From a virus, in IMG/VR virus record IMGVR_UViG_3300033145_000192, positions 113,376-177,375 of that record: a stretch of 64,000 nt of DNA. The stretch is one strand, 5' to 3'. Positions 22,943 to 52,113 of the stretch are shown piece after piece. The notes under the pieces were generated by a model. It had not been told where the DNA came from. It searched no databases and saw only the letters and a list, made by a program, of their open reading frames with translations. Position numbers and translations under genes: made by a program. Each line of letters starts with the position of its first letter. The stretch's first letter is position 1.

Positions 22943-25156
22943 TATCCGATAACTCGCAATAGCCGTAGCCATAGCCAGCTTCTTGTCCTTCAATGTTGGT
23001 CTAGATTTCTCAGCAATGACTTCCGCATAGCGACTAAAGATAATAGGATGATATCCCCTAGTCGATTCATTAGCAAGAACTTCTAGAACTCTCTCAGTAG
23101 TTATCTCGTCTTCTAGGTATGAAGCAACGCCGAATGCAATGCGCTCGATACCTGTTCTATCGGTCTTTGTCAAAGACTTCTTGTATTTCTTCCCCGTGGT
23201 CTTCAATATCATCTTGGTGACGATATCGTAAACCTCTTCTACTCTGTCCAGTTCATTCGCCTTGGTTGTCTCCCAATCAAGCAGCCATCCCATGCCCTTC
23301 GGCTTGGTTTCTCTTGGCTTTTGTTTGATGTCGGTAGTTCCACCTGGTCTTCCAACTGGTGGCCTATTTCTATTCTGAGGCTTGCCTGGCTTATTCAGCG
23401 TAGGCATGCCTTCCTGCTCTTCCTCGTATTGTTCTGATAGAGGGTCAGTGAATGGGCCGTGCTTGATAAGCAATTCAGACTTCTCCCTAATTGCCTTCTC
23501 ATCACGCATACGCTCAAGCTCAATCTCAAAGTCCTCACCAAATGCCTCAAGGACTGCCTCAATGGAGATGATGTTTCTGTCTAGCAGACCCATAATGAGT
23601 TGCTTCTCAGCCTTCTCGTCACGTAGCGACATTCTTCCGAACTTAACCTTCGGAACGTCCCTATGGCCCATCGTATCGGCAATCATCTTCAACTGGCTGT
23701 TAATCCAGCGTGTGACGGTTTGGCGACCTTCCTCAAGACGCTCAAGCAAAGTTCGCACACCAAGGAAGCCTGTGCTAAAGCTAGCTCCAGTAGTTCCTCC
23801 TAGGAGAGTATCTGGGACGCCGAGGCCACGAAGAATGTCTCTATCAACTGCCTCATACTTGGCAACATTCAGGATTCTATCTACTGGTGGGTAGCTACTC
23901 TCAATAGAGATGGCATCATTCCATACCATGTTCATTGCGGCACTTGGAGTTCTCAAGAACTCAGCGAATGCTCTAAAATGCTCCTCTGGTGGAATAAAAC
24001 CGTTCTTGAAGTCGCCAATCTTGAAAATAGTGACTGCGTTAATTACGCTATCACATACGCTCATATCCATCTGGCGCAGTCTGTTCTTGTAGTAGATATC
24101 AGACATTACTGGCCATAGAAGTGGGTCAGCCCAATCCTCGTGGTCGTCCTTCATATAGTGGAGTGTCCACAGCTTTGCTGGGTCAACATCTACTATTAGT
24201 GGGTTCTTCCCCTTCTTTGATAGCTTCTTAAACTCGGGTGGTAGATTGATTTCGGTTTTGTCTAGGAAGTCGATTTCGTGCGTTGAGTTATACTGCCCAG
24301 TGTCGATATCGTTTGCTGTCAATGGGTCTAGGATAAAGACCCACTTTGACTCTCCGAAATACTTGGTGCCACGAAGGTCCATCTGGAATGGGTTGAGCAT
24401 AGTATAGCGCCATGGAATTTGCTTATCGCCAGGCTTCTTTCCAGATTGGTCGTCAACGTGCTGATTCTTGTCGTCTTCCGCCGGGTCATTTACATCACCA
24501 CGGACTTCAACAAATCCCTTCAGTGATTTTGTTCCCTTTGCTCTCTTCATCTTATTGTAGGCTGATTCGTTGATTGTGCCATGTGTTGTGTAGATGAATA
24601 CGTTGGCATACTTGTAGTAGTATCGAAGGATATCCTTTACTCTACCTGCAAGGTCTACGTGCTCGGCCCATCTTTTGTAGAACTTCTCAACGGCCTTGCT
24701 TGGGTGCTTGATGGTTAGTCCTTCTGAAGCGAAGTTAGCCATCAGGTCAATTACGTTCTTAGCTACGCCAAATCCCTTATATGCTTCAACACATAGACCC
24801 ATCTTGTAGTGGGCCATTCTGGCTCTAGAACTGAACGCGCTCATGCTCCCTTGGATTCGGCTATTACTGCCAGACAATCCACTGAACTGACTACCTCCAC
24901 CAAACATGCCGTTAAAGTTCTGTGGCATCAACCAAGAAAGTGGCCAATTTTGCAGACCATCCATTCCGAAGTTCTGTCCGGTGTCTCCACCTATGTTGAC
25001 GCCACGCCTTTGAATGTTTGCAGCATCGGCCCTAAACGCATCTACAGTTTCTCTATTGGCCTTAATGGCACCAGAAAGCGAACCCTCCAACTGTTTCAAA
25101 ACAGATGGGCTCAAGCCTATAGTATTGATGCCTAGTTCTACTCTGTTATCTGACAC
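22934..25156 (-). CDS. Portal protein
   Basis: A 740-residue protein directly downstream of the large terminase, as usual for portals. It has the size and helix-rich composition of the family, with segments such as IPWRYTMLNPFQMDLRG and LGGTTGASFSTGFLGVRTLLER. An extended Pro-rich linker follows near residues 590-630. It forms the dodecameric DNA entry ring at one capsid vertex. Start chosen at the ATG after a GTGTATGAT element; the leader is about 35 nt. Confidence 0.85.
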   Translation of the reverse strand: MSDNRVELGINTIGLSPSVLKQLEGSLSGAIKANRETVDAFRADAANIQRRGVNIGGDTGQNFGMDGLQNWPLSWLMPQNFNGMFGGGSQFSGLSGSNSRIQGSMSAFSSRARMAHYKMGLCVEAYKGFGVAKNVIDLMANFASEGLTIKHPSKAVEKFYKRWAEHVDLAGRVKDILRYYYKYANVFIYTTHGTINESAYNKMKRAKGTKSLKGFVEVRGDVNDPAEDDKNQHVDDQSGKKPGDKQIPWRYTMLNPFQMDLRGTKYFGESKWVFILDPLTANDIDTGQYNSTHEIDFLDKTEINLPPEFKKLSKKGKNPLIVDVDPAKLWTLHYMKDDHEDWADPLLWPVMSDIYYKNRLRQMDMSVCDSVINAVTIFKIGDFKNGFIPPEEHFRAFAEFLRTPSAAMNMVWNDAISIESSYPPVDRILNVAKYEAVDRDILRGLGVPDTLLGGTTGASFSTGFLGVRTLLERLEEGRQTVTRWINSQLKMIADTMGHRDVPKVKFGRMSLRDEKAEKQLIMGLLDRNIISIEAVLEAFGEDFEIELERMRDEKAIREKSELLIKHGPFTDPLSEQYEEEQEGMPTLNKPGKPQNRNRPPVGRPGGTTDIKQKPRETKPKGMGWLLDWETTKANELDRVEEVYDIVTKMILKTTGKKYKKSLTKTDRTGIERIAFGVASYLEDEITTERVLEVLANESTRGYHPIIFSRYAEVIAEKSRPTLKDKKLAMATAIASYRIGV

Positions 25157-31339: not shown

Positions 31340-33340
31340 CTACTTAATTGGGCAGCTTCCTCTTGAGCACTTTTGCTCAGGGTCGATAACCAACTTCTTA
31401 CCATCGTAAGCTTCATATGACTCGCGAGTTATTTCTGTATAGGGAGGCTGTGGTCTGCCCCCGGCTCCCACCAACACGGTGGTCCCCTTGAGCTTTGGAA
31501 GGAACTTAATTACCGTGTGGTAAAGCTCCTTCTCAGTTGTAGCAGGAGTTAGGTTGACTGTCAAGGAAATTGAATTGTCAGCCCACTCACGCTGCAACAT
31601 AGCCTGAATCGCGAGGGTGTCATGCATCGAAATGTCGTGCTGTCCCTCAACGATGTCTTCTGCATCGTAACCTAATTCAGAAACTTCGTCAACAAGCGGG
31701 TGCTTACAAACATGCTTGGCAATGATTGTGTTTATACCCTCTTCCTTGTTAATACACTCTTCGAACTCTATCCCGTCACTCATAAGTTTTGGAATGTTAG
31801 GGTCGTCCTTTTGATAACGCACGCGTTGCTCATAGTATGGGAACAGTAGAGCCTGGCCACCCTCGGTTGCTCCAGCCAATTTTGCAATTGTGCCAGTTGG
31901 AGCTAGGGTGGTGTTCTTGATTGGAGCAGGAATTCTAAGCTCATGGGCATATTCCATGCCGGTCTTTTTCACTACTCGGTAGAACTGACGCAGCGTGCTA
32001 TGCACCTCTGGGTCATTGTGGCAATCGCTATACTTCTTGCCTTGCTTGCACAGCCAACCCTGGAAGCCAAAGAACCCGACACCAATGCGCCTGTTGCGAT
32101 TAACTACGGCACGCTGCCATGGCGAATAGATATCGCCAAAGGTAGCACGAATAAGGAAGCGAGTCATCATCATAAATGCTCGCTTTGCTCCTTCGACATT
32201 GTCGTGGAATTCTGATAGGTTGATATGTCCTAGGTTGCAATTGCCAAATGGGAGAGCGAAAATCTCACCACATGGATTTGAACTTACGACCTCTTCGGTC
32301 TCACCGTGTTGCGCCAAAGACATATTGCAGAAGCCTGGCTCGCCACTGACATACATCGACTCGATGCATTTCTTATAAACCAGCCTGGCGTGCTTGTCGC
32401 CCTTCTTGAATAGTCTGAAGAAGGAATTGTCAACACCTACCGAGATGTTTGTTGTCCAATGAGAGACCCTGGCATTGTCGCCCTTACAGTGAATGAACTC
32501 AAAGATGTCCGGGTCCTTCCAATGCTTAATTGACATACGGGCACTACGACGGACATTGCCAGCAACTACGCACACTGCAATACGGTGGTCAATCTCCATG
32601 TGGTCGAGAGATGTGAGCCTCTGGCCCACTTTGCTACTCAACAATTCAGCAACGCCCTGAAGCATTCGGATAAGAGCCTCTGGCCCCGAAGCGGTGCCGC
32701 CAAATGACCTAATAGGGGAACCATAGGGTCTTACGCGGCTCATATCAAATACAAGCGGCTGTGGGTTCTTGGCAAATGCCTGCTCCAAAACCAAAATAAG
32801 AGCCTCTACCCAGCCCTCACGACTATCCTCGACAGGAATACATCCATCCCAAGTATGGTGATAATCAGTAGATAGAGTATCCCCAATGCGCTCGTGGTCA
32901 GCATGCTTAGAGTCGCATACGATGTGAACATCGAGCTTGTTCTTAATAGGAGGATATTTCTTGATGAACCTGTCGGAGTAGTTAGCACCGACGCCACCAC
33001 CCTTCATAAGCTCATCGAACATGAAGGAATAGTGGTCGGCCATATTATCACGCCAACCAGAGACGTGACAATTAAACAAGAACTGACGACCTTTGACGCC
33101 ACTAACCCACAGGTGACGGCCTGCGGGTAGTGCCTTAAAATCCATGAATAGGTCAACCAAATCTTGGCGTTCGTTCCTGCGCCAGAATTTTTTGTCTACT
33201 AGAGCAAGATTACCGTCTACGACACGTTCAACTGTCTCTGGCCATGTCTCGTTTGAGCCGTCTGGTTTCCTCCTACTATACGTTCTTTCATAAACTTGCT
33301 TCCCTATCGGACCCCACTTAATCTGCTGCATAGTAGGCAT
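31340..33340 (-). CDS. nrdJ: Class II (adenosylcobalamin) ribonucleotide reductase
   Basis: A 666-residue single-chain reductase, starting MPTMQQIKWGP behind AGGAG. Key features are NPCGEIFALPFGNCNLG with the active-site Cys, GTIAKLAGATEGG in the barrel, and a C-terminal redox Cys pair in CSRGSCPIK. The layout and length fit the monomeric B12-dependent (RTPR-like) type, which reduces ribonucleoside triphosphates without oxygen or a small subunit. It supplies deoxynucleotides for phage DNA synthesis. Confidence 0.9.
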   Translation of the reverse strand: MPTMQQIKWGPIGKQVYERTYSRRKPDGSNETWPETVERVVDGNLALVDKKFWRRNERQDLVDLFMDFKALPAGRHLWVSGVKGRQFLFNCHVSGWRDNMADHYSFMFDELMKGGGVGANYSDRFIKKYPPIKNKLDVHIVCDSKHADHERIGDTLSTDYHHTWDGCIPVEDSREGWVEALILVLEQAFAKNPQPLVFDMSRVRPYGSPIRSFGGTASGPEALIRMLQGVAELLSSKVGQRLTSLDHMEIDHRIAVCVVAGNVRRSARMSIKHWKDPDIFEFIHCKGDNARVSHWTTNISVGVDNSFFRLFKKGDKHARLVYKKCIESMYVSGEPGFCNMSLAQHGETEEVVSSNPCGEIFALPFGNCNLGHINLSEFHDNVEGAKRAFMMMTRFLIRATFGDIYSPWQRAVVNRNRRIGVGFFGFQGWLCKQGKKYSDCHNDPEVHSTLRQFYRVVKKTGMEYAHELRIPAPIKNTTLAPTGTIAKLAGATEGGQALLFPYYEQRVRYQKDDPNIPKLMSDGIEFEECINKEEGINTIIAKHVCKHPLVDEVSELGYDAEDIVEGQHDISMHDTLAIQAMLQREWADNSISLTVNLTPATTEKELYHTVIKFLPKLKGTTVLVGAGGRPQPPYTEITRESYEAYDGKKLVIDPEQKCSRGSCPIK

Positions 33341-33347
33341 ACATCTC

Positions 33348-34026
33348 CTAACGTAAGTCTTTGATATCACCTCTTAGAAACTTCTTGAGAGATGACTTCT
33401 TATTTGTTCTATGGTCTACAACCAGGTCTTTGCGCTCGCAATAGGTTCTAACTTTGTCCCCTCTTGCCCCTCTACCGACCTGGCTTTTCCTCTTGGCGTT
33501 CTTTTTATCTTTGTTGCGTCCCCGTTGGGCACTAAATAACTTAGCCCGCATGGCGTTCAGGGCCAACGCCTTATTGCGTCCCTGCCTGCGGCCATACTGG
33601 GCTATAACTACCATTCCTGTTGGGATGTGGGTTAGTCGAACTGCACTGTCAGTTTTATTTTTATGCTGTCCACCAGGTCCGCTACCTCTAAAGAAAGTAA
33701 ATCTGAGGTCTTGTGGTCTAAGTGCCACTTCAGTCTTTTGCTGGTGTTGTAAGACAGCAACGGTAATAGTGCTTGTATGAACTCTTCCCCTGCGCTCTGT
33801 AGGCGGGACTCTTTGGTATCTGTGGACCCCTGCCTCGTGACTGAAAACTTCATTTGCTCTCCTTCCTCCTACTTCTAGGACGACATATGATGCGGCGCGG
33901 TCGAGCAATTCAATGCTAAAGATGCTCCTTAGCGGCGACCTTCCTGAATACGTTCTCGAACTTGACAACCAAGTCCTTGGCGTCTGCACCACCAGCGGCG
34001 GCGCGAATCTCAATCGTTACGTTCAT
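33348..34026 (-). CDS. RF1-type peptide chain release factor with +1 frameshift
   Basis: Translation starts at 34026 (GAGGAG site) and runs 36 codons (EIRAAAGGADAKDL) to an in-frame TAG at 33916-33918. A +1 shift gives 225 residues. The following frame holds VPPTE, the PxT stop-recognition motif of RF1, and GPGGQ, the catalytic motif. Sequence around the stop reads AAG GAG CAT CTT TAG C, matching the layout of the E. coli prfB shift site (internal Shine-Dalgarno, 3 nt, CTT, stop). Domain 1 of normal release factors is missing. It would terminate at UAG and UAA. Confidence 0.85.
33910..33930 (-). promoter_or_regulatory. Programmed +1 frameshift site (CUU-UAG)
   Basis: Minus-strand AAGGAG, CAT, then CTT TAG C. 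Internal Shine-Dalgarno, spacer and slippery codon have the same spacing as prfB, but the stop is UAG rather than UGA. Slipping CTT to TTT moves the ribosome to AGC, and the downstream frame encodes the rest of the release factor. Confidence 0.85.
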
Positions 34027-35918: not shown

Positions 35919-36461
35919 TTAGGTGAAACACCTATTATTTGGGGCCTACACTATATCAGGGCCCCGCCGTAAGTCCTTTGTTTTCGACCACCGCTCTAAG
36001 TTCAATAATACCAGGGGGTTACGTAAAGCCTTTGTTTCCGACCCTTTCTTTTCATTTCACCGCCCCCATGAAATGAAATGCTTATCTCCTTTGTTTGCGA
36101 CCGCCCGATTTCTGGCACCCCCAACCCCTTGCCCTGTAAGGGTTTACGGCGGTGACCGTTTTCCGGCACCCCCAACCGCCCGATTTCCGTCGCCCCGCAC
36201 CGAAAACAAAGGAGTTATGACTGGCACGGGACGTGCTATAGGTAGGGTGGCGGCGCGGGGTCGGGTGCGACCCAAAAGCGTCCCGCTCTTTGACAATTCG
36301 GCTCATTTGCGTGTCACGGTGGGGGGCCTTGCGCCTCATTTGTGACGCACGGACCACGTCGAGAGACGTATCTGGAACCGAGACCCGCCGGAGGCTGAGA
36401 CGCTTCTGACACCTACGGGGGCGGCAGGAGGGACGCAAATGAGACGGCCTTGAAACGCAAC
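35919..36461. other. Non-coding region with repeats and a sigma-54-like promoter
   Basis: About 540 bp with no convincing gene. It contains three direct copies of CCTTTGTTTNCGACC (35975, 36029, 36088), duplicated GGCACCCCCAACC blocks, an inverted copy of the first repeat near 36201, and a sigma-54-like promoter at 36222. The TGANACG array starts at about 36310. Confidence 0.6.
36222..36237 (+). promoter_or_regulatory. Sigma-54-like promoter 1
   Basis: TGGCACGGGACGTGCT: GG at 36223-36224 and GC at 36235-36236 are exactly 10 bp apart. Preceded by AAAGGAGTTATGAC. No gene starts close downstream. It may drive the whole array region. Confidence 0.6.
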
Positions 36462-36524
36462 GGGTCGCCCTGAAGGCAGGGAGTCGCAAATGCGACGAAT
36501 CCGGTTCGAATCCGGAACGACCCA
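36462..36524 (+). ncRNA. tRNA-like element with short loops
   Basis: Acceptor GGGTCGC with ACGACCC (one C-A mismatch), T-arm TCCGG-TTCGAAT-CCGGA, and two mini-hairpins in the D and anticodon positions with only 4-nt loops. It cannot read codons but keeps the top half of a tRNA. The next reading frame's first possible ATG is its 3' discriminator. Confidence 0.5.
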
Positions 36525-36583
36525 TGACACGTTTCACCATGCGTCTCACAGAAAGGGACGCAAATGACACGAAGGAGGAGGAG

Positions 36584-36814
36584 ATGAAACGAATGCGGCC
36601 TGTCACTGAGACGATGGCACGCATCTGCGACGAATGTGACGGGTTGGGTTTCGTTCCGCGACACTCAACTGGAACGAAAGTGACACTGGTCGAGGCGCAT
36701 ACGGCACAGAAATGCGACGAATGCGACGGCTTCGGGCTGGTGGCACGCAAGCGAGACGAATCCACCCTGACTGAGACGATTCTGCGACTCAAAACCCTCT
36801 ACGAAACGAACTGA
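36584..36814 (+). CDS. Small zinc-finger protein (two CDECDG motifs)
   Basis: 76 residues from the ATG behind GGAGGAGG. CDECDGLGF and CDECDGFGL are DnaJ-like CxxCxGxG zinc motifs, spaced to form one zinc site. The upstream in-frame ATG at 36524 coincides with the tRNA-like 3' end and lacks a ribosome site. It sits inside the TGANACG array; its codons carry several copies. Confidence 0.6.
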   Translation: MKRMRPVTETMARICDECDGLGFVPRHSTGTKVTLVEAHTAQKCDECDGFGLVARKRDESTLTETILRLKTLYETN

Positions 36815-36823
36815 GAGACGGAA

Positions 36824-37333
36824 ATGACACGCTTCTGGACCATTGCCCACGACGATAAGGTTTCAAATGCGTCCCACGAACACCTAACCCTTGCGTTTCA
36901 CGACGATGGGACGATTGCGGTTCGAACCAAGACCGTCTCAGAAGGGGCTCATATGCGTGACACTTACGAGTCATGCGGCTCCTACGGTCGGTGGGATACG
37001 GGTCACCGTTGGGTCGAATTCGACTCAAGCTGCACCGCATTTGACATGGCTTCGGTTGCCATGCAACGCGAGTGGAACGTAACGGTTCTCAACTGCAACG
37101 CAAGTGACTCGGATTGGGGTCACATCAGTTTCATCGAGTGCGACGGAAACGTCACCGACCCGGATACGTTGCGCGGCATGGGACGCAACAAAGACGCGGA
37201 CGCCGATGAGACGAGTGCGACACGCAAGCGGAACGGAAACAGCCTCATGCGGTTCGGCGGGTGGAACGCAACGCGGGTCGTAAATGACAAGGCTCTGGCA
37301 CGAGCCAAGGCTGCCGACGCGGCACGCAACTGA
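36824..37333 (+). CDS. Hypothetical protein in repeat array
   Basis: A 169-residue acidic protein (many Asp and Asn, moderately aromatic). Its ATG lies in GGAAATGACACG, itself a copy of the array motif, and its TGA stop is the first base triplet of a tRNA-like hairpin. No family recognised. Weak ribosome site. Confidence 0.5.
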   Translation: MTRFWTIAHDDKVSNASHEHLTLAFHDDGTIAVRTKTVSEGAHMRDTYESCGSYGRWDTGHRWVEFDSSCTAFDMASVAMQREWNVTVLNCNASDSDWGHISFIECDGNVTDPDTLRGMGRNKDADADETSATRKRNGNSLMRFGGWNATRVVNDKALARAKAADAARN

Positions 37334-37375
37334 CACGAACGGTGCTCGGGGCGGGTTCGACTCCCGCCCGTGTCA
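37331..37375 (+). ncRNA. tRNA-like minihelix
   Basis: TGACACG and CGTGTCA form a perfect 7-bp acceptor. The T-arm GGCGGG-TTCGACT-CCCGCC follows after a 12-nt linker. The gene's stop codon is the TGA of the acceptor strand. T-loop agrees with the tRNA consensus. Confidence 0.6.
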
Positions 37376-37432
37376 TTTCGGTTTCACCATACGTGCCACC
37401 CAGAGGCACGCAAACAGAACGGAAGTTTCAAA

Positions 37433-37651
37433 ATGAAGAACATTCACGACCTGCGAGACGCATTCGACACGATTCAGGCTGCGGCACGAGACGGAAAACG
37501 AGCCTGCAACGGATTTGAGACGCTAGAGGCGTCCTGCGTGTTGGACCACGATATGCTGGCCAGCATACTCCTGAGCGTTGAGGAGCAGTTGCGTCTCATT
37601 GCGGACCACGCGAACCGGAGCCTGGGACAAACCGCTATCCGAATCGACTGA
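37433..37651 (+). CDS. Small helical protein in repeat array
   Basis: 72 residues, predicted almost entirely helical (DLRDAFDTIQAAARDGKRA, LASILLSVEEQLRLIADHAN). No family recognised. It ends just before another tRNA-like hairpin, in the same layout as its neighbours. Confidence 0.5.
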   Translation: MKNIHDLRDAFDTIQAAARDGKRACNGFETLEASCVLDHDMLASILLSVEEQLRLIADHANRSLGQTAIRID

Positions 37652-37659
37652 CACGCATC

Positions 37660-37707
37660 TGAGACGGACGGCTTCTAGGGTCGTAGGGTTCGATTCCTTA
37701 CGACTCA
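37660..37707 (+). ncRNA. tRNA-like minihelix
   Basis: TGAGACG and CGACTCA pair at 6 of 7 positions. The T-arm TAGGG-TTCGATT-CCTTA is present, with a 17-nt linker. Located after the stop of 37433-37651. Confidence 0.5.
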
Positions 37708-37761
37708 CTTGCGGTTCACAATCCGTGAAACGCACAACTGCCTGGTGGCAAAGGATTTAGC

Positions 37762-38355
37762 ATGAACGTCAGAAAGAACGCGCTTCGTCTCATGGTCGTC
37801 CGCAACGCAACTGAGACGGAGTTCGCTGCCCAGTTCGCCTACCGCACCGCACCGCTCGGCTCGACGGGACGCAAATGGGACGCAATGATGGACGACGGCT
37901 GGTGGAGGGGCGACGGTAACGAGTGGGTCAAGGTCTACAAGGGTATCAGTGAAACGCATTTGAGCCCGGACGACTACAACTACCTCTCGTGGGACGAAAT
38001 TGACTCGATTCTGCGACGAGAGACCATTCGGTGCGTAAGCGTGTCAACGACTCGTCTGCGGCGTGTTCGGTCTCACTTGCGTATCACCGAGGCGTCGTCC
38101 TTCGGTGGCAACGTGGCCCGCAGGGTTCGGTGGCTCAAGGACATGCGGGACGAAGCGGAGCGAAACGCATTTGAGGCGAACGTCCTGCTCTGCTCCGATA
38201 TGGACCAGTTGGCCGTAACTCCCGGCGACGAGTGGGATTACACCTACAACCCCGAGACCTACGGTTGGGACCACAGCGAGCCGTCCGGGTCATTTGCGTT
38301 CCAGAACCGTGCCAGCCACGAGTTGACCTTCGACGACATGGACGACTGCTTCTAG
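37762..38355 (+). CDS. Hypothetical protein in repeat array
   Basis: A 197-residue protein, Trp/Asp/Glu-rich in its C-terminal half. No family recognised. AAAGG precedes the ATG after CCTGGTG, a block also seen before the next two genes. Codons include many TGANACG copies. Confidence 0.55.
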   Translation: MNVRKNALRLMVVRNATETEFAAQFAYRTAPLGSTGRKWDAMMDDGWWRGDGNEWVKVYKGISETHLSPDDYNYLSWDEIDSILRRETIRCVSVSTTRLRRVRSHLRITEASSFGGNVARRVRWLKDMRDEAERNAFEANVLLCSDMDQLAVTPGDEWDYTYNPETYGWDHSEPSGSFAFQNRASHELTFDDMDDCF

Positions 38356-38374
38356 CAGACACGCATTGGTGACG

Positions 38375-38403
38375 GAGGCGGTAGGTTCGATTCCTGCCGT
38401 CTC
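38375..38403 (+). ncRNA. tRNA top-half-like minihelix
   Basis: GAGGCGGTAGG pairs over 11 bp with CCTGCCGTCTC around loop TTCGATT, like a stacked acceptor plus T-stem with no other arm. Confidence 0.55.
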
Positions 38404-38458
38404 ATTTGCGTCTCAATTATGGGACGCTTAACGGCCTGGTGGCCAAGGTGACACGCAT

Positions 38459-38698
38459 ATGAGTATCTTCCTGAACGGCGAGGCGTATGAGCAGGACATG
38501 GCCGAGACTGTCGTTGAAACGCAAGTGGAACGATACACCGGCAACTGGGAAATGAAGGACGGCAGCCAGCCCGTTGGCATGGTGACCGGAATGAGACGGA
38601 AGGACAGTTTGTCCCGTTTGCGTCTCACCGACTCCCAGGCCAAGTTCTTCCTCAGCGACACTCACTGGGATATCTACTGGGAGGTGTTCACCGACTGA
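38459..38698 (+). CDS. Hypothetical protein in repeat array
   Basis: A 79-residue protein with a mid-region of EVERYTGNW and a C-terminal aromatic patch. It follows GCCTGGTGGCCAAGG. No family recognised. Confidence 0.5.
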   Translation: MSIFLNGEAYEQDMAETVVETQVERYTGNWEMKDGSQPVGMVTGMRRKDSLSRLRLTDSQAKFFLSDTHWDIYWEVFTD

Positions 38699-38735
38699 TA
38701 CGCATTTGAAACGAACCAACGTCGGTTTGTTTCAG

Positions 38736-38766
38736 AGGGATAGACGGTTCGATTCCGTTTGTCTCT
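38736..38766 (+). ncRNA. tRNA top-half-like minihelix, also terminator-like
   Basis: AGGGATA plus GACGG pairs over 12 bp with CCGTT plus TGTCTCT (G-T pairs included), loop TTCGATT. This is exactly 7+5 bp, the acceptor plus T-stem length of tRNA. It is followed by TTTT and so could also act as a weak terminator. Confidence 0.6.
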
Positions 38767-38809
38767 TTTGCGTCTCACAATGAGGCGCAGCAATGCCTGG
38801 AGGCACGCA

Positions 38810-39040
38810 ATGAACACGTATCTGCTCACGGTTTGGGACGGAAGCAACGCAAATGGGCTCGGCCAGACCTACAATCTGGGGCGCAGCAACGGGCTCTACA
38901 CCCCGATTCAGCAGGCTGGAACGATTCTGGCACAGTGGCACGCAAATGGCACGAACGAGTGGACGTGCAACGATAACGGGGCGTGGGAGAACCTGGAGAC
39001 GGGCCACAAGGCGCAACTGAGCCGAGTGCTGGGCCGCTAA
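38810..39040 (+). CDS. Hypothetical protein in repeat array
   Basis: 76 residues from the ATG behind GGAGG (MNTYLLTVWDGSNANG). Gly, Asn and Trp-rich. No family recognised. The upstream in-frame ATG at 38759 falls in the preceding hairpin. Confidence 0.5.
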   Translation: MNTYLLTVWDGSNANGLGQTYNLGRSNGLYTPIQQAGTILAQWHANGTNEWTCNDNGAWENLETGHKAQLSRVLGR

Positions 39041-39089
39041 ACGCAAGTGAGACGAATCAACTTCTAGCCTGAAACGCAAAGGAAACGAA

Positions 39090-39314
39090 ATGCTGAAAAG
39101 TGAACTGATAGAGGAAAACAAGCGGCTGCACGATACCGTCGATTACCTTCGGTCGCAGTTGCGTCTCATACCGCACAGTCGTTTCGAGAAGTATCGGCAC
39201 GCAAAGGACACGAACGAGACTCTGGCCTACCGCAAGTGCGCCCAAGAGGTAGACTCGCGCTGCCTCGCCGCACTGAGCCACGCAACTGACATACAAGACG
39301 GTTGCACCGACTAG
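39090..39314 (+). CDS. Small coiled-coil protein
   Basis: 74 residues: LIEENKRLHDTVDYLRSQLRL is a leucine-zipper-like segment, followed by a basic/Ala-rich half. AAAGGA precedes the ATG. Last gene of the array cluster; a terminator hairpin follows. Confidence 0.5.
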   Translation: MLKSELIEENKRLHDTVDYLRSQLRLIPHSRFEKYRHAKDTNETLAYRKCAQEVDSRCLAALSHATDIQDGCTD

Positions 39315-39336
39315 GCGACACGCATTTGAGACGGAC

Positions 39337-39369
39337 CTGAGCATGTCGTTAAACTGCTCGGTTTCTTTT
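39337..39369 (+). terminator. Intrinsic terminator at end of array gene cluster
   Basis: CTGAGCA and TGCTCGG make a 7-bp stem with an 11-nt loop, followed by TTTCTTTT. This element takes the place where upstream genes have tRNA-like hairpins. Confidence 0.65.
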
Positions 39370-39562
39370 GCGTCTCACAACTGGCCAGGCCAGGGGGCAG
39401 TCTGTCTATAATGAATCAGCGAACGACACGCAAATGCAACGTATCTTCTCTAGCAGTTACGAATGACACGCAAATGCTACGAATGCTTTCGTTTCACCAT
39501 ACGTCTCACGAGAATCCGCCCGAGGTGTTCACGCATAAGGAGTAAATGACACGCAAATGAGA

Positions 39563-39724
39563 CCCACTACATATGGTATGCTATTTGTTATGACACGCAA
39601 ATGAAACGCTGTTGTTCCCTACGGGGAGATTGGCATGATTCCAACACAACTAAAGGAGTTACAAATGAGACGCAAATGCAACGAGCACCTGCGCCATTCT
39701 AATACACCCCCCATATGTAGTGGG
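39563..39724. repeat. 14-bp perfect inverted repeat, 134-bp spacer
   Basis: CCCACTACATATGG at 39563-39576 and CCATATGTAGTGGG at 39711-39724. The spacer contains further TGANACG copies and a possible small frame. Confidence 0.8.
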
Positions 39725-40004
39725 TTGGCACGCAAGAGAGACGCAACGAGCCTATGAAACGCATTTGTGACATAAAATCAATTCGTTTCACTATACGTCT
39801 CACGGAAAGCCGCCCGAGGTGTCTGGGGAGAGGGAGGAAACGCAAATGAGACGAGAGCCGCAAATGAGACAAAAGCCTCCGCTGCGCTGCGTCATGCTTC
39901 TTTTCATTTCACCTTGCAACGCATTTGTGGAGCAAGGCTACCTAAAGGCTTTACAGCGTTTCACTTACGTCTCAGATGTTGCACCGTATGTGACACGAAG
40001 ACTT

Positions 40005-40020
40005 TGGCACGGGATTTGCT
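40005..40020 (+). promoter_or_regulatory. Sigma-54-like promoter 2 (near-consensus)
   Basis: TGGCACGGGATTTGCT matches the RpoN consensus TGGCAC-N5-TTGC at every fixed position. GG and GC are 10 bp apart. A TGACACG copy ends 8 bp upstream of it. Confidence 0.65.
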
Positions 40021-40114
40021 TAGGGGGCGGCTGGCGGCTGGCCGACGTAACTCTATACGCCACGTCTAAGCCATTGTGCCCACTAGCTTTATGAACTCAG
40101 TGGACCTTGGGGTC

Positions 40115-40130
40115 TGGCATGGCATTCGCT
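40115..40130 (+). promoter_or_regulatory. Sigma-54-like promoter 3
   Basis: TGGCATGGCATTCGCT; GG 40116-40117, GC 40128-40129, 10 bp apart. Unlike most others it is not palindromic, which favours a promoter over an RNA hairpin. Confidence 0.45.
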
Positions 40131-40192
40131 TAGTGAGACGTATCTGACCCATGACACGCATAACTCCTTTGTTTTGGCAATGAGACGTATTG

Positions 40193-40228
40193 TGGTGTCC
40201 AGCCGGACACTGTAGCCAAATGGACACC
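40193..40228 (+). promoter_or_regulatory. Palindromic upstream sites of promoter 4
   Basis: Two sites: GTGTCC-AGCC-GGACAC, a perfect palindrome, followed directly by TGTAGCC-AAAT-GGACACC. They lie about 40-60 bp upstream of the -24 GG. Confidence 0.55.
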
Positions 40229-40261
40229 ACTGGAATCATTAGAGTTACGTCAAATACCCTC

Positions 40262-40277
40262 TGGCATGGGACGTGCT
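40262..40277 (+). promoter_or_regulatory. Sigma-54-like promoter 4
   Basis: TGGCATGGGACGTGCT followed by ATAG; GG and GC 10 bp apart. Preceded by AGAGTTACG as in the other members. Confidence 0.55.
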
Positions 40278-40465
40278 ATAGCTTCCCTGTCGGCCAACGG
40301 CAACACGGGAGGAAAGGTAAGGTATCACGGGGGTTACGGGTGTCATTGTGATACCCTCCCATGATACTAACCCTAGACTCGCCAGCATATTCGGGAGGTA
40401 AGCCTAACCCCTATTCGCAGGAATCGTGTCAAAACGGTCCCGAGCGAGCCATAAATGAGACGGAT

Positions 40466-40483
40466 TGTCGCCAAAAGGCTACA
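40466..40483 (+). promoter_or_regulatory. Palindromic upstream site of promoter 5
   Basis: TGTCGCC-AAAA-GGCTACA. TGAGACG ends 3 bp before it and 51 bp before the -24 GG. The same layout is found at promoters 7 and 8. Confidence 0.65.
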
Positions 40484-40511
40484 GCGTCCACGCAACGGGG
40501 GGAGTTAGGTT

Positions 40512-40527
40512 TGGCATTCGGCGTGCT
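40512..40527 (+). promoter_or_regulatory. Sigma-54-like promoter 5, upstream of ornate RNA
   Basis: TGGCATTCGGCGTGCT; GG 40513-40514, GC 40525-40526. A start about 12 bp on (near 40,538) would transcribe the structured region that ends at the 41397 terminator. Confidence 0.6.
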
Positions 40528-40539
40528 ACTGTGTTCCGT

Positions 40540-41425
40540 AACGCTAACTTGAGAGGGTAAAGCGAGCCACTATACCGCCCCATAAACGGGATTCCGACTG
40601 ATAGCGGGATAATGATTCTATCAGGGTTTTATACTAACCGGCGTTAAAAGCGTTGGACGTATTGTGGACCTTAGCACGATACGTAGGGTTCCCCTGGCGG
40701 GGAATACAAAGGTTGTATGGTCTACTGTGCAAGGTAGCTTAAGCCATACAACCGGGGGCGGTAAGCCGAGATACTGGCTTGCTCAATGTCGTAAGACTGC
40801 CCTGTAAAAGCGACGGCGCTTGCCCAAAGTATTTAGGCTTTAACCTATAAGGTTGCGGTAGGGGTTGGAATCAGGATACCCTGAGCGAGTAGACTAGGTT
40901 AGAGTTTCTGCCATGCGGGCGACAAGCCGATTGTTAAGCGGCTCGCGTGGATAGGTTGGCAAACCTATAACCCTGTTTTGGTGGGGTATATGGTGAGCTA
41001 TGGCCGACTGTTGGGAGCGTGGCGCAAGCTACGCCAGTCGGTTATCTCGCTAGTCTGTGCAAGCGGACCTTGTATATCCTTTTAATGAACGGGGCCTAGC
41101 CCGAAACGTCCGTTTCCGTTAGCTAGACACGGTTTCGCCTCTATTCGCCTATATCCGTGAGTCGTTTAGACTCGTGGGCTACCTAACTTGGTAGGTTACA
41201 GGATACCGCAAGGTCTCCCCAATACCGTAAACCCAGGGGCCTACAGGATAGCGGGCGATTGGCGATAACACGGTCCATAATGCGTTGATACCAAGGGACT
41301 CCAAACGGAGTTATTAAATCCCGTGAACGGTTTATGCCGGAAACAATGGCTTATTAGGGCAGGGTTCAAGGGGTCATATCCCCTGGCAGGGTTTTTGCCG
41401 CCACCATTCGGGAGGCGGCTTTTTT
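40540..41425 (+). ncRNA. Large ornate structured RNA candidate (about 0.9 kb)
   Basis: No reading frame fits. Many helices are visible: GGTTGTATGG/CCATACAACC (10 bp) near 40,710, ATAGGTT-GGCA-AACCTAT, CCGACTG...CAGTCGG enclosing GCGTGGC-GCAA-GCTACGC (GNRA-type loop), AGCCG/CGGCT, GAGTC/GACTC, CTACC/GGTAG and ACTCC/GGAGT. A sigma-54-like promoter precedes it and an intrinsic terminator ends it. Size, tailed-phage context and nearby tRNA elements recall GOLLD and ROOL RNAs, but I cannot show homology. Confidence 0.6.
41397..41425 (+). terminator. Intrinsic terminator of the ornate RNA
   Basis: GCCGCC and GGCGGC stem, 11-nt loop, then TTTTTT. Confidence 0.85.
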
Positions 41426-41439
41426 CGTGGGAGTGTATC

Positions 41440-41634
41440 GTGTTCAAGTTCTCGATTCGTTCGGCTCGCTCGGGTGGCGAGACCGAGGTATTCTCAATGG
41501 TCCCGTTCTGCGGGGTCAAGGTCGCCTTGGGCGGAAACGCCCCCAAGGCAAACTGCGTCCGAAACGGCGCGGGCTACGTCTACGTGGGACGGCGCAAGCG
41601 GTCGCAAATGCGCTCAGGCCGCACGCGGGTCTAA
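41440..41634 (+). CDS. Small hypothetical protein
   Basis: 64 residues from a GTG start behind GGGAG, right after the terminator. Composition is Gly/Ala/Arg-rich with a basic end (VGRRKRSQMRSGRTRV). The next gene also starts GTG TTC AAG. A longer in-frame start would lie inside the structured RNA and is rejected. Confidence 0.5.
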   Translation: MFKFSIRSARSGGETEVFSMVPFCGVKVALGGNAPKANCVRNGAGYVYVGRRKRSQMRSGRTRV

Positions 41635-41659: not shown

Positions 41660-41730
41660 ATGCCACTGGCCTAAAAGTAAGGCGCTCGCCGCAAAGGCGG
41701 GAGGTATGGGTGCAAATCCCATGTGGCGTT
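41660..41730 (+). ncRNA. tRNA-like cloverleaf, non-canonical anticodon loop
   Basis: All four stems fold: acceptor ATGCCAC/GTGGCGT, 3-bp D-stem with a 9-nt loop, CTCGC/GCGGG anticodon stem, T-arm ATGGG-TGCAAAT-CCCAT. Length 71 nt. The anticodon loop CGCAAAG lacks U33 and may even close to 5 nt, so decoding is doubtful. No CCA is encoded. Confidence 0.55.
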
Positions 41731-42274: not shown

Positions 42275-42290
42275 TGGCACGTCGGGTGCT
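42275..42290 (+). promoter_or_regulatory. Sigma-54-like promoter 6
   Basis: TGGCACGTCGGGTGCT followed by ATAGG; GG and GC 10 bp apart. A start near 42,301 would give a 46-nt leader for the 42347 gene. Confidence 0.6.
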
Positions 42291-42346: not shown

Positions 42347-43057
42347 ATGAAACGTCGCAAGCGCAGCGGGCGAACGACTCACAAACGGGCGTGGCATAGC
42401 GCGGCGAAAGCCCCCCGTGGCAAGCCGTGGGCAAAGGTCGATACCTTGCTGGAACGGCTCAAGGCAGAGCACAGTTTCAAGGCTATGGCTCTCCCCGTGT
42501 TTCAGACGCTCTGGACACTCCAGCGTGACAACGGCTGGAAGGGAAACGCTGTTACCCAGTTCGTTTGGGAGCAGTATCGTCGGCGCACGGAGTATATGCC
42601 CTACGTCCGGGACGGCCTGGATATGGGGGACGTGCTCGCTGCGGTAGACGGGCAGGCTTTCCCCAACTGGCTTGACGCATACGCTGAGAAGCACGGTTCG
42701 GGCCAGCGCAAGTATGGGGAGTCAAAGGGAGAGATTATCCCTGAGACGAAACCTACTCGGTTCAAGGTCCGTGGAAAGCCCAAGCCCAAGGTTGAGGCTC
42801 CCAAGGTCGAAACCCAGGCAGAGCGGTGGAAGCGTATCGGAGACGAGCGGCGAGCGGAAAACGCCACGGCTGAGGAACAGTCGGGTATCCGCCAGAAAGC
42901 CTGGCTCCGCGACAGAGACATTGAGGACATTTGGCGACTCATATCCAAGGGAGAGTTTCCCCTGGGGACCGTCGCTTTTGACGCAGAACTGAAACGGCGT
43001 GCAAACGAGCGGGAACAGGCCCGACAGCACGCGGTTTTGTTCGACCACGGGCGGTAG
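42347..43057 (+). CDS. Basic hypothetical protein
   Basis: A 236-residue protein with strong GGGAGGGAGG site. Very basic N-terminus (MKRRKRSGRTTHKRAWH) and a Lys/Pro-rich middle (KPKPKVEAPKVE), suggesting nucleic-acid contact. No family recognised. First gene after promoter 6. Confidence 0.6.
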   Translation: MKRRKRSGRTTHKRAWHSAAKAPRGKPWAKVDTLLERLKAEHSFKAMALPVFQTLWTLQRDNGWKGNAVTQFVWEQYRRRTEYMPYVRDGLDMGDVLAAVDGQAFPNWLDAYAEKHGSGQRKYGESKGEIIPETKPTRFKVRGKPKPKVEAPKVETQAERWKRIGDERRAENATAEEQSGIRQKAWLRDRDIEDIWRLISKGEFPLGTVAFDAELKRRANEREQARQHAVLFDHGR

Positions 43058-43076
43058 AACCGCCATAGGAGTTTTC

Positions 43077-43727
43077 ATGGCAAAGGCCAAGTTCGATTTC
43101 ATTGGTATGGTCATGGACGCTCCCGAGGACCAGCGGGCTGGTATGTTGGAGCAAATGGCCAACATGACCAGCACCCCGGTTTCCGAGCTTTCGGAGCAGT
43201 TGGACAGCCGACTGAACAAGCGGAAGGAAACTGAGGAGCAGAAGGCTCGACGTTTGGAGCGCGAGGAGCGTAACAAGCGGGTCGAGACTGTTACCGCTAC
43301 GGTGGAGTCGCTGCGCGACGATATCGACGGTCTGCGGGTGGCGTTCGAGGAGGTTTCGGAACTGGAGGGGCAGATTGTCCTGAGCGGTTTCGACAGCGAT
43401 ACCCTCGTGTTCACGGTCGGCGGGCTCAAGGTGAGCAAGCGTGGTGGCGGAACTGGCGGCGGAAAGCCTGCCGCGAATCAGCCGCGCCCCTACGTTTCGG
43501 ACGGCGAGCGTATCTTGGGCCAGTTGCCCAAGTGGGCTGAGGAAAACGTCGGCCTGGCTGAGTTGGAGGAGCTTTCCGAGGAGCACGAGATTGACCTTTC
43601 GTATTCCGCAAAGACGGGCAAGCTCGGTTCCAAGAATCTCGCCAAGTTGCTGCTCAAGGCAGAGCTTATCGAGAAGAGCGAGGTAACTGCTGAGGAGCAG
43701 GCCGCGTTCGAGGCGACTCGGGACTAA
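43077..43727 (+). CDS. Coiled-coil protein
   Basis: 216 residues from the ATG behind AGGAG. An Arg/Lys/Glu coiled coil spans about residues 45-85, a Gly-rich linker sits near 120-130, and an acidic helical end follows (ELEELSEEHEIDL). No family recognised. 19 bp after the preceding gene. Confidence 0.55.
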   Translation: MAKAKFDFIGMVMDAPEDQRAGMLEQMANMTSTPVSELSEQLDSRLNKRKETEEQKARRLEREERNKRVETVTATVESLRDDIDGLRVAFEEVSELEGQIVLSGFDSDTLVFTVGGLKVSKRGGGTGGGKPAANQPRPYVSDGERILGQLPKWAEENVGLAELEELSEEHEIDLSYSAKTGKLGSKNLAKLLLKAELIEKSEVTAEEQAAFEATRD

Positions 43728-48154: not shown

Positions 48155-49615
48155 ATGGGCGGCTTTGACCGAAACATCACGATTGGCGCTAGGTGGTTTG
48201 ATACCATCAAGAAGGATTATTCCGACTGGCGCTTTGCTTGGGCGCGTGAGGCTGGACAGAATAGCCTTGACGCGGGAGCCCAGAATATCGTCATTACCGT
48301 GGAGTATGACGAGGATACCGACGAGACCACCGTTAGCTGGAACGACGACGGTTGCGGTATGGACGAGGATACGCTTGAGTCCAAGTTCATGGCTATTGGC
48401 GGAAGCCAAAAGGCCGAGGGCAATACCGGCGGCTTTGGCGTAGCCAAGCTAATCCTGGCGTTTGCTCAGGAGAATTACGCGATTCGCACCCGTGATATCC
48501 ACGTCCGGGGCGAAGGCTCGCAATACTCGGTCGAAACCGGACTGCTCTACAAGCGGGGGCTACGGCTTACCGTTACCATGTCTGGCGACGAGACATACTG
48601 CGTGCGTGAGCGTATCAGGCGGTGGGTTCGGTTCACTACCACTCGCTGCGCTATCATGCTAGACGGCGAAAACCTCACGACGTTGCGTATGCACCGACCA
48701 AAGGTCCAGAACGAGTGGTGCAAGGTTTACACCCACAACATTGGCGACGATTTCGCGCACCAAATCCGGGTCCGAATCAATCGCCAGTATATGTTCGACA
48801 TTTACTCCAGTGTCCCGAGGCACATTACGGTGGACCTTATCGGGGACTCCACGGAGTATCTCACGTCGAACCGGGACGGAATGAACTGGCAATGGCGCAG
48901 TAAGCTCCAGAAGCTCTGCGAGGAGCTATTCGCTGACCCCAGGCAAATCAAAGAAACCCCCGACCACGTAAAGATTTATCGTGGAACTATGGGGCGTATC
49001 TCGTGGCAAACTGAGGACGAGAAGCCTCGCAAGGTTTCGCTGAATACCAAGCCCGAGAGGGTTGCGGCTGTTCCCACCACGTATGCGGGTTCCCCCAACG
49101 CAAGGGAGTGTAACCCCGTCCCGCTGCCGCCGCACAAGCGGAGTTTCAGAGAGATTCAGCACCTTATCGACGGGTTCGATGTGGTCGTTATGAATCAGAC
49201 GAGTAAGGAGTTGCCCGAAAAGTGGGAGCCGGGAACTTTGAGCAAAACGAACTACAAGCTCCTCAACCGTTGGATTCGAGTTATCCAGACGGTCGGAGAG
49301 ATACTCGGGCGAACCGAGGACGTGACTATCGGCTGGGTTTTCTCGTTCGATGCGCGTGCTATGCACCGTTACAACGACGAACACGGCCATATGGTGCTCC
49401 TCAACCCCGTGGACGTAAAGGAAACTCGCATGACGAATCACTGGAGGGCGGATATTTCCTCCTTCTATGAGATGGTCGTCTGCGCTATCCACGAAATCAC
49501 GCATATCGACAACTCGGGACATACCGAGGCGTTTGCTCGGGACATTACCTACTCAATGGGCAAGGTTATGGCTCGCCAGTCGCTTCTGGAAAAGGTCCGA
49601 AAGGAGACGAGGTAA
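48155..49615 (+). CDS. GHKL ATPase fused to HEITH metallopeptidase-like domain
   Basis: A 486-residue protein. The first 150 or so residues hold GHKL (Hsp90/MutL/histidine-kinase-type) ATP motifs: REAGQNSLDAG (N box), NDDGCGMD (G1) and GGFGVAKL (G2). The C-terminus has CAIHEITHIDNSGHTEAF with HEITH at about 446-450, an HExxH zinc-protease motif with a possible third ligand. Such a pairing is not one I recognise as a standard phage protein. Possible roles include proteolytic takeover or counter-defence. Confidence 0.75.
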   Translation: MGGFDRNITIGARWFDTIKKDYSDWRFAWAREAGQNSLDAGAQNIVITVEYDEDTDETTVSWNDDGCGMDEDTLESKFMAIGGSQKAEGNTGGFGVAKLILAFAQENYAIRTRDIHVRGEGSQYSVETGLLYKRGLRLTVTMSGDETYCVRERIRRWVRFTTTRCAIMLDGENLTTLRMHRPKVQNEWCKVYTHNIGDDFAHQIRVRINRQYMFDIYSSVPRHITVDLIGDSTEYLTSNRDGMNWQWRSKLQKLCEELFADPRQIKETPDHVKIYRGTMGRISWQTEDEKPRKVSLNTKPERVAAVPTTYAGSPNARECNPVPLPPHKRSFREIQHLIDGFDVVVMNQTSKELPEKWEPGTLSKTNYKLLNRWIRVIQTVGEILGRTEDVTIGWVFSFDARAMHRYNDEHGHMVLLNPVDVKETRMTNHWRADISSFYEMVVCAIHEITHIDNSGHTEAFARDITYSMGKVMARQSLLEKVRKETR

Positions 49616-52040: not shown

Positions 52041-52113
52041 GCCTCTATAGCTCAGTAGGTAGAGCAGCGGGCTTTTAACCCGTGGGTCGGGGGTTCGATT
52101 CCCTCTGGGGGCA
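52041..52113 (+). tRNA. tRNA-Lys (anticodon TTT)
   Basis: A fully canonical cloverleaf: GCCTCTA/TGGGGGC acceptor with G-T/G-U pairs, D-arm GCTC/GAGC, anticodon stem GCGGG/CCCGT, loop CTTTTAA and T-arm GGGGG-TTCGATT-CCCTC. 73 nt, no encoded CCA. It shows that normal tRNAs exist beside the odd ones. Confidence 0.95.

Follow-up and report, generated by a model that had tools for sequence, protein, structure and literature searches.

The window analyzed here is a stretch of 64,000 nucleotides, positions 113,376 to 177,375 of the 177,375-bp IMG/VR record IMGVR_UViG_3300033145_000192 (G000). The record comes from a bacterial virus, a large phage known solely via environmental DNA, and its terminase is 21 to 29% identical to phage records (among the matches listed, 30 of 36). 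G000 encodes a ribonucleotide reductase (RNR), an RlaP-like protein and, outside the window and near the GC-skew maximum, a tmRNA with an array of 42 predicted tRNAs (positions 23,699 to 49,252 of the record). The GC-skew minimum lies at 147 kb of the record, or approximately 34 kb of the window; gene orientation near it changes from mostly minus strand on the left to mostly plus strand on the right. A release-factor-like protein is encoded on the minus strand at 33348 to 34013, with a complete RF-1 domain and a PCRF domain matched at its end only. The candidate RNA, whose core spans 40540 to 41425 on the plus strand, lies 5 to 7 kb to the right of the skew minimum, near the head of the plus strand gene block. 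After its terminator come a small plus strand open reading frame (41440 to 41634; 64 codons from a GTG, without a PHROGs match) and a plus strand tRNA-like cloverleaf (41660 to 41730) whose anticodon loop has 5 nt and which ARAGORN calls tRNA-Leu(caa). The candidate RNA had been compared in setting with RNAs often found near tRNAs; such proximity is weak here, consisting of the one cloverleaf, with the 42-tRNA array more than 100 kb off in the record. No tRNA was found inside the candidate RNA.

The densely interspersed repeat ACGCAWWTG, with AGACG or a related sequence after most copies, occurs 24 times on both strands of the window (1.83 expected). Twenty-three of these copies fall within 3.6 kb (36304 to 39927) adjoining the GC-skew minimum, the run ending at the border of the structured RNA. 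Similar repeats are found in two related records, G001 (IMG/VR 3300033142_000579) and G002, and they possibly represent an origin or binding sites.

The core of the candidate RNA is predicted to form 21 hairpins with 297 base pairs at a minimum free energy (MFE) of −359.2 kcal/mol. Measured against dinucleotide shuffles, which control for composition, its fold z score is −6.1 (20 shuffles) or −6.5 (60 shuffles). For background, 43 random 886-nt windows of G000 on either strand gave a mean z of −1.01 (standard deviation, 1.34; lowest, −4.37), values that are rough because each window was compared with eight shuffles; two of the 43 reach −4.3 to −4.4. A known ROOL RNA from L. salivarius scored likewise gives −4.7. 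The minus strand of the core also folds beyond chance (z of −4.2 versus −6.5 for the plus strand). The predicted ensemble is unusually sharp and well defined: the centroid lies within 3.5 kcal/mol of the MFE (mean gap of 59 and smallest gap of 17 in 40 shuffles), and the mean base-pair distance is 114.9 (mean of 212 and minimum of 116 in the same number of shuffles). These results bear out the many strong helices of the original prediction. Its single GNRA-type hairpin is likewise upheld and becomes four GNRA tetraloops in the MFE structure, GUAA at 40791 and GCAA at 41024, 41059, and 41208, compared with a mean of 0.23 and a maximum of 1 in 80 shuffles. Among the best-defined elements are an 11-bp helix, GGTTGTATGGT/GCCATACAACC, enclosing an inner hairpin (40711 to 40753, plus strand; pair probability, 1.00) and a hairpin of 11 plus 7 bp with a GCAA tetraloop (41000 to 41045, plus strand; pair probability, 0.97 to 1.00). 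A further predicted helix pairs 40911 to 40920 with 40941 to 40950.

As had been proposed, the core is free of reading frames: across all six frames, stop-to-stop stretches reach at most 63 codons, and no open reading frame of at least 50 amino acids overlaps 40553 to 41240. Taking a long, frame-free stretch with excess structure as the descriptive criterion, we found both in 40540 to 41425. In a separate scan by 200-nt windows, the strongest folds (z of −5.4 and −6.5, plus strand) occur in two windows within 43001 to 43300, which is coding. The case for the candidate is made only by a combination, namely, fold depth and sharpness together with the GNRA loops and a terminator. On this combination, we hold with good confidence that 40540 to 41425 is real as a structured noncoding element, and structure at the RNA level is likely.

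The terminator, also anticipated at the end of the element, consists of a GCCGCC/GGCGGC hairpin (41397 to 41419) followed by T6 (41420 to 41425) on the plus strand, and the two together score −15.4 kcal/mol (z of −3.7). This intrinsic terminator was absent from the list produced by a simple consensus scan.

The 5′ end differs from the one first drawn. The original prediction described almost 0.9 kb of RNA; the core is indeed structured, but the structured block reaches upstream to approximately 40031. In 450-nt windows, the fold excess begins between 39.85 and 40.35 kb, with none at 39,600 to 40,049 (z of −0.2). The z scores are −3.1 for 40031 to 40537 and −6.4 for 40031 to 41425 as a whole, and the segment from 40288 to 40540 (z of −3.5) folds beyond 100 of 100 shuffles. 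Two further domains upstream of 40540 are closed by strong predicted helices. The helices predicted in this probable plus strand 5′ extension (40031 to 40539) include 40044 to 40055 with 40240 to 40251 (12 bp), 40192 to 40201 with 40221 to 40230, 40297 to 40308 with 40529 to 40539 (interrupted), and 40399 to 40408 with 40504 to 40513. When the fold is started at 40274, positions 40285 to 40291 pair with 41385 to 41391, immediately 5′ of the terminator; this helix is tentative because it requires a start a few bases before 40288 and because other starts pair the segment differently. The modeled structures thus suggest that the block probably starts near 40031 and that the first-drawn boundaries were too short. 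Given the upstream helices and fold excess, an RNA of 1.14 or 1.40 kb appears more likely than one of 0.89 kb.

Sigma-54 promoters have a GG-N10-GC core in the context TGGCAY...TGCW. The pattern TGGCAYN6YGCTW occurs seven times in the window, always on the plus strand, compared with a mean of 0.29 and a maximum of 3 in 100 shuffles, although the pattern was drawn up post hoc and the figure is therefore flattered. In all of G000, the stricter TGGCAYN6TGCTW has six forward and no reverse occurrences, and the reversed control has zero and one. Four plus strand sites stand in tandem at the structured block: TGGCACGGGATTTGCTT at 40005 to 40021, directly 5′ of the block; a weaker site at 40115 to 40131, with CGC at −12; TGGCATGGGACGTGCTA(TAG) at 40262 to 40278, which differs by C/T from a site at 36222; and the site chosen originally, at 40512 to 40528. 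The first, third, and fourth of these would start transcripts at approximately 40031, 40288, and 40538, respectively, following the sigma-54 spacing rule. With a transcript that begins farther upstream, the 40512 site would lie within predicted helices and may then belong to the RNA rather than act as a promoter. Enrichment of the motif supports a promoter-like start, with both the promoter and the 5′ end on less firm ground than the original prediction held.

Elsewhere in the window, the sites at 42275 and 47319 lie just 5′ of ATG codons. The site at 36222 to 36241 has counterparts in two relatives (IMG/VR 3300023214_000296 at 1956, minus strand; IMG/VR 3300033142_000579 at 31408, plus strand), all with TGCTATAGGTARGGYGGC downstream, and comparable sites precede open reading frames in the phage contigs IMG/VR 3300035698_003924 and 3300027779_003675. 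The motif shows no enrichment in the most complete relative, G005, described below (one occurrence versus two for the control). Neither sigma-54 itself (PF04552) nor its activators (PF00158) were found in the two records searched, the phage and its relative, and a host having both must therefore be assumed. A T7-like RNA polymerase that might read these promoters was not found in either record, in a search in which control genomes also gave no match.

We next compared the candidate with known RNA families. One report (PMC12286853) describes GOLLD as a phage-linked RNA, often longer than 800 nt, with an ornate fold, no protein product, and a frequent location near tRNAs, and describes GOLLD and ROOL as unrelated in sequence, both forming RNA-only cages via kissing loops and A-minor contacts. 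The candidate RNA shares with GOLLD its phage setting, size, ornate fold, and lack of protein product, and with ROOL the character of a large, ornate, phage-linked RNA, to which the fold excess of the L. salivarius copy is comparable. It differs from both in lacking a model match, from GOLLD in having no tRNA island directly adjoining it, and from ROOL in its greater length. Covariance models of GOLLD (RF02032) and ROOL (RF03087) each matched none of six related phage records at E ≤ 10, the GOLLD model having been run without a positive control and the ROOL model with a working one; in a genome search, ROOL was found in the one control plasmid and in none of three phage records. Earlier Rfam searches of the whole window at gathering thresholds and of 2,501 nt at E ≤ 10 returned no match and are not relied upon: in control cmscan runs, the L. 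salivarius ROOL was missed in a 5,001-nt sequence and found in a 1,201-nt sequence at 130 bits, so we set these early negatives aside and searched a 1,151-nt stretch anew. This search yielded nothing meaningful in Rfam; the best E value belonged to PAGEV, at 17.3 bits against a cutoff of 61.1, which we take as noise.

Membership in GOLLD or ROOL is rejected on these grounds, since the same tools recovered a known ROOL. The idea that the element is a divergent member of either family is accordingly not supported. The original reading as a candidate giant RNA, with extensive structure between a promoter-like start and a terminator, has good support. Phages also make long noncoding RNAs that belong to neither family: the reports on ICP1 (PMC7567579) and phage K (PMC9241854) document abundant examples, of approximately 800 nt in ICP1, which their authors liken to GOLLD or ROOL in size or setting. 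The candidate RNA resembles these in lying outside both families; theirs are known by RNA sequencing, whereas the candidate is proposed from its sequence alone.

Searches of the IMG/VR, GTDB, phage, and plasmid collections found no sequence homologue of the candidate RNA, and 50,697 phage records held no informative nucleotide similarity to it. Neighboring proteins used as bait in IMG/VR led to no RNA homologue; RNR as bait returned one already-known contig and one 4-kb contig (RNR, 46% identical), again without an RNA homologue, and a terminase alignment against GTDB genomes likewise led to none. When the RNA was read as a pseudo-peptide from several seeds, IMG/VR gave no match and GTDB gave eight stretches, none confirmed. 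The promoter pattern recovered five stretches, including three new records whose best RNA match was no better than E = 0.7, and an 18-nt conserved block 0.6 kb upstream recovered 10 stretches, 9 of which have only 18 to 19 nt in common with it. A partial literature search found no publication on this RNA.

Terminase searches led to four loci, and an alignment-based search led to a 167-kb record, G005 (IMG/VR 3300038379_000173). G001, the only close relative with DNA reaching so far, is 78% identical over 658 nt up to window position 39,997, and its record then ends before the RNA; that of G002 ends 250 nt past a sigma-54-like site. At the corresponding place in G005 (152,830 to 153,700) is a structured noncoding stretch of approximately 0.85 kb (z of −5.6). 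It follows the RNR gene and precedes both a tRNA-Leu(CAA) and the gene for a homologue, at 27% identity, of the protein encoded at 42999 to 43727 of the window, and it is flanked on both sides by tRNA-like cloverleaves whose anticodon loops have 4 nt. The two strands of this stretch differ little in folding (z of −5.6 and −4.8). The G005 stretch and the window RNA show no sequence similarity beyond chance (Smith-Waterman score of 164, approximately 2 standard deviations above shuffles, whose maximum was 206), and single-sequence covariance models of two subdomains, run on 387,770 bases, matched nothing except the window. We treat the G005 stretch as a candidate counterpart by position only. 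The best match with filters off in 2 kb of G005, a 37-nt piece (10.8 bits; E = 0.0015), lies on the opposite strand and was judged to be chance. A 1.27-kb gap at 104 kb of G005, also considered as a counterpart, shows no similarity and by eye resembles a broken or atypical coding sequence.

Computation shows for the candidate RNA a nonrandom, sharp fold, enrichment of GNRA loops, no frame, a terminator, and enrichment of a promoter motif; beyond a stable, specific fold, we infer. Among giant phage RNAs, the element probably represents a new class. Transcription would run rightward from at least one sigma-54-type promoter, most likely 40005 or 40262 and possibly 40512, and would end at the 41425 terminator to give an RNA of 0.89, 1.14, or 1.40 kb. 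Its many rigid helices would carry several GNRA caps that could dock on other helices. Because the anatomy of the candidate matches the GOLLD/ROOL kind, the most likely mode would be structural, an RNA-only scaffold or multimer; such an RNA might accumulate during infection and bind or enclose partners, for example, ribosomes or tRNAs. Whether the element is, in full, a stand-alone, protein-free giant phage RNA of a new class with a structural role, perhaps as a GOLLD/ROOL-like multimer, we consider evenly balanced. More tentatively, and with rather less confidence, it may be a 1.1- to 1.4-kb RNA of a new class with tandem sigma-54-type promoters, in a lineage that keeps a giant RNA at one place although the sequence diverges until it is no longer recognizable; one relative perhaps has the RNA cut out between two tRNA-like cloverleaves without a standard anticodon loop.

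The block could instead be a long structured leader: transcription would be held at the 41425 terminator until a signal lets it continue into the genes beyond, in the manner of an attenuator. The terminator does lie 14 nt 5′ of the GTG of the next small open reading frame on the same strand, and the motif sites at 42275 and 47319 directly precede genes, but the 1,151-nt cmscan matched no Rfam riboswitch or leader family, and known leaders are far shorter than 0.9 to 1.4 kb; we regard this explanation as unlikely. We think it equally unlikely that selection acts on a DNA feature, whether an origin, a site for packaging, or an array of binding sites close to the origin, with the fold a by-product of inverted repeats. 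Such a feature would suit the GC-skew minimum approximately 6 kb to the left, the dense repeats between, and a minus strand that also folds beyond chance. Against it stand the better fold of the plus strand, the enriched GNRA loops, the intrinsic terminator at the end, and the ACGCAWWTG repeats, which stop at 39927, short of the structured block.

Idle or decaying DNA, such as tRNA-like remnants that fold by chance, would agree with the lack of a detectable homologue and with the tRNA-like elements nearby. Composition is controlled by the dinucleotide shuffles, however, and neither the GNRA enrichment nor the sharp ensemble would be expected of such DNA; the candidate has no tRNA inside it, and it is rare for a phage genome to retain over 1 kb of idle sequence. 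This origin seems less probable still. Least probable, and in our view improbable indeed, is a GOLLD or ROOL member so diverged that it lies below the reach of covariance models: the candidate resembles both families in its size, its setting in a phage, and its ornate fold, but each model matched none of the six records (GOLLD without a positive control) and the 1,151-nt search was empty, while a comparable search recovers a known ROOL.

Few giant RNA classes are known from bacteria and phages, and their function has stayed open even after cryo-electron microscopy. If the reading as a giant RNA is true, one more class, matched by no catalogued RNA family, would join the few giant virus RNAs whose purpose is unknown. 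Another class with no sequence relationship to GOLLD or ROOL, and with a candidate counterpart in a distantly related record, would put to the test the idea that such RNAs have arisen repeatedly for one purpose, and the promoter type would point to expression via a host regulator that phages are not commonly believed to use.

Two further features of the region were noted. A 486-amino-acid protein encoded on the plus strand at 48155 to 49615 carries a histidine-kinase-like ATPase domain; the phage collection yielded no match to it, and G002 encodes a relative with 38% identity. In addition, tRNA-type T-arm hairpins lie between or ahead of genes on the plus strand at 36500, 37351, 37684, 38381, 38743, 41706, and 42146, giving seven on the plus strand and none on the minus strand in 33.0 to 44.6 kb; several are full cloverleaves with a 4- to 5-nt anticodon loop, and counterparts occur in IMG/VR 3300033142_000579 and 3300038379_000173. 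The sequence GGTTCGANTCC occurs eight times in the window (0.13 expected), once within a true tRNA-Lys at 52041. A possible role for these tRNA-like hairpins is to mark places between genes where RNase P/RNase Z cut, including, in G005, either side of the large structured stretch.
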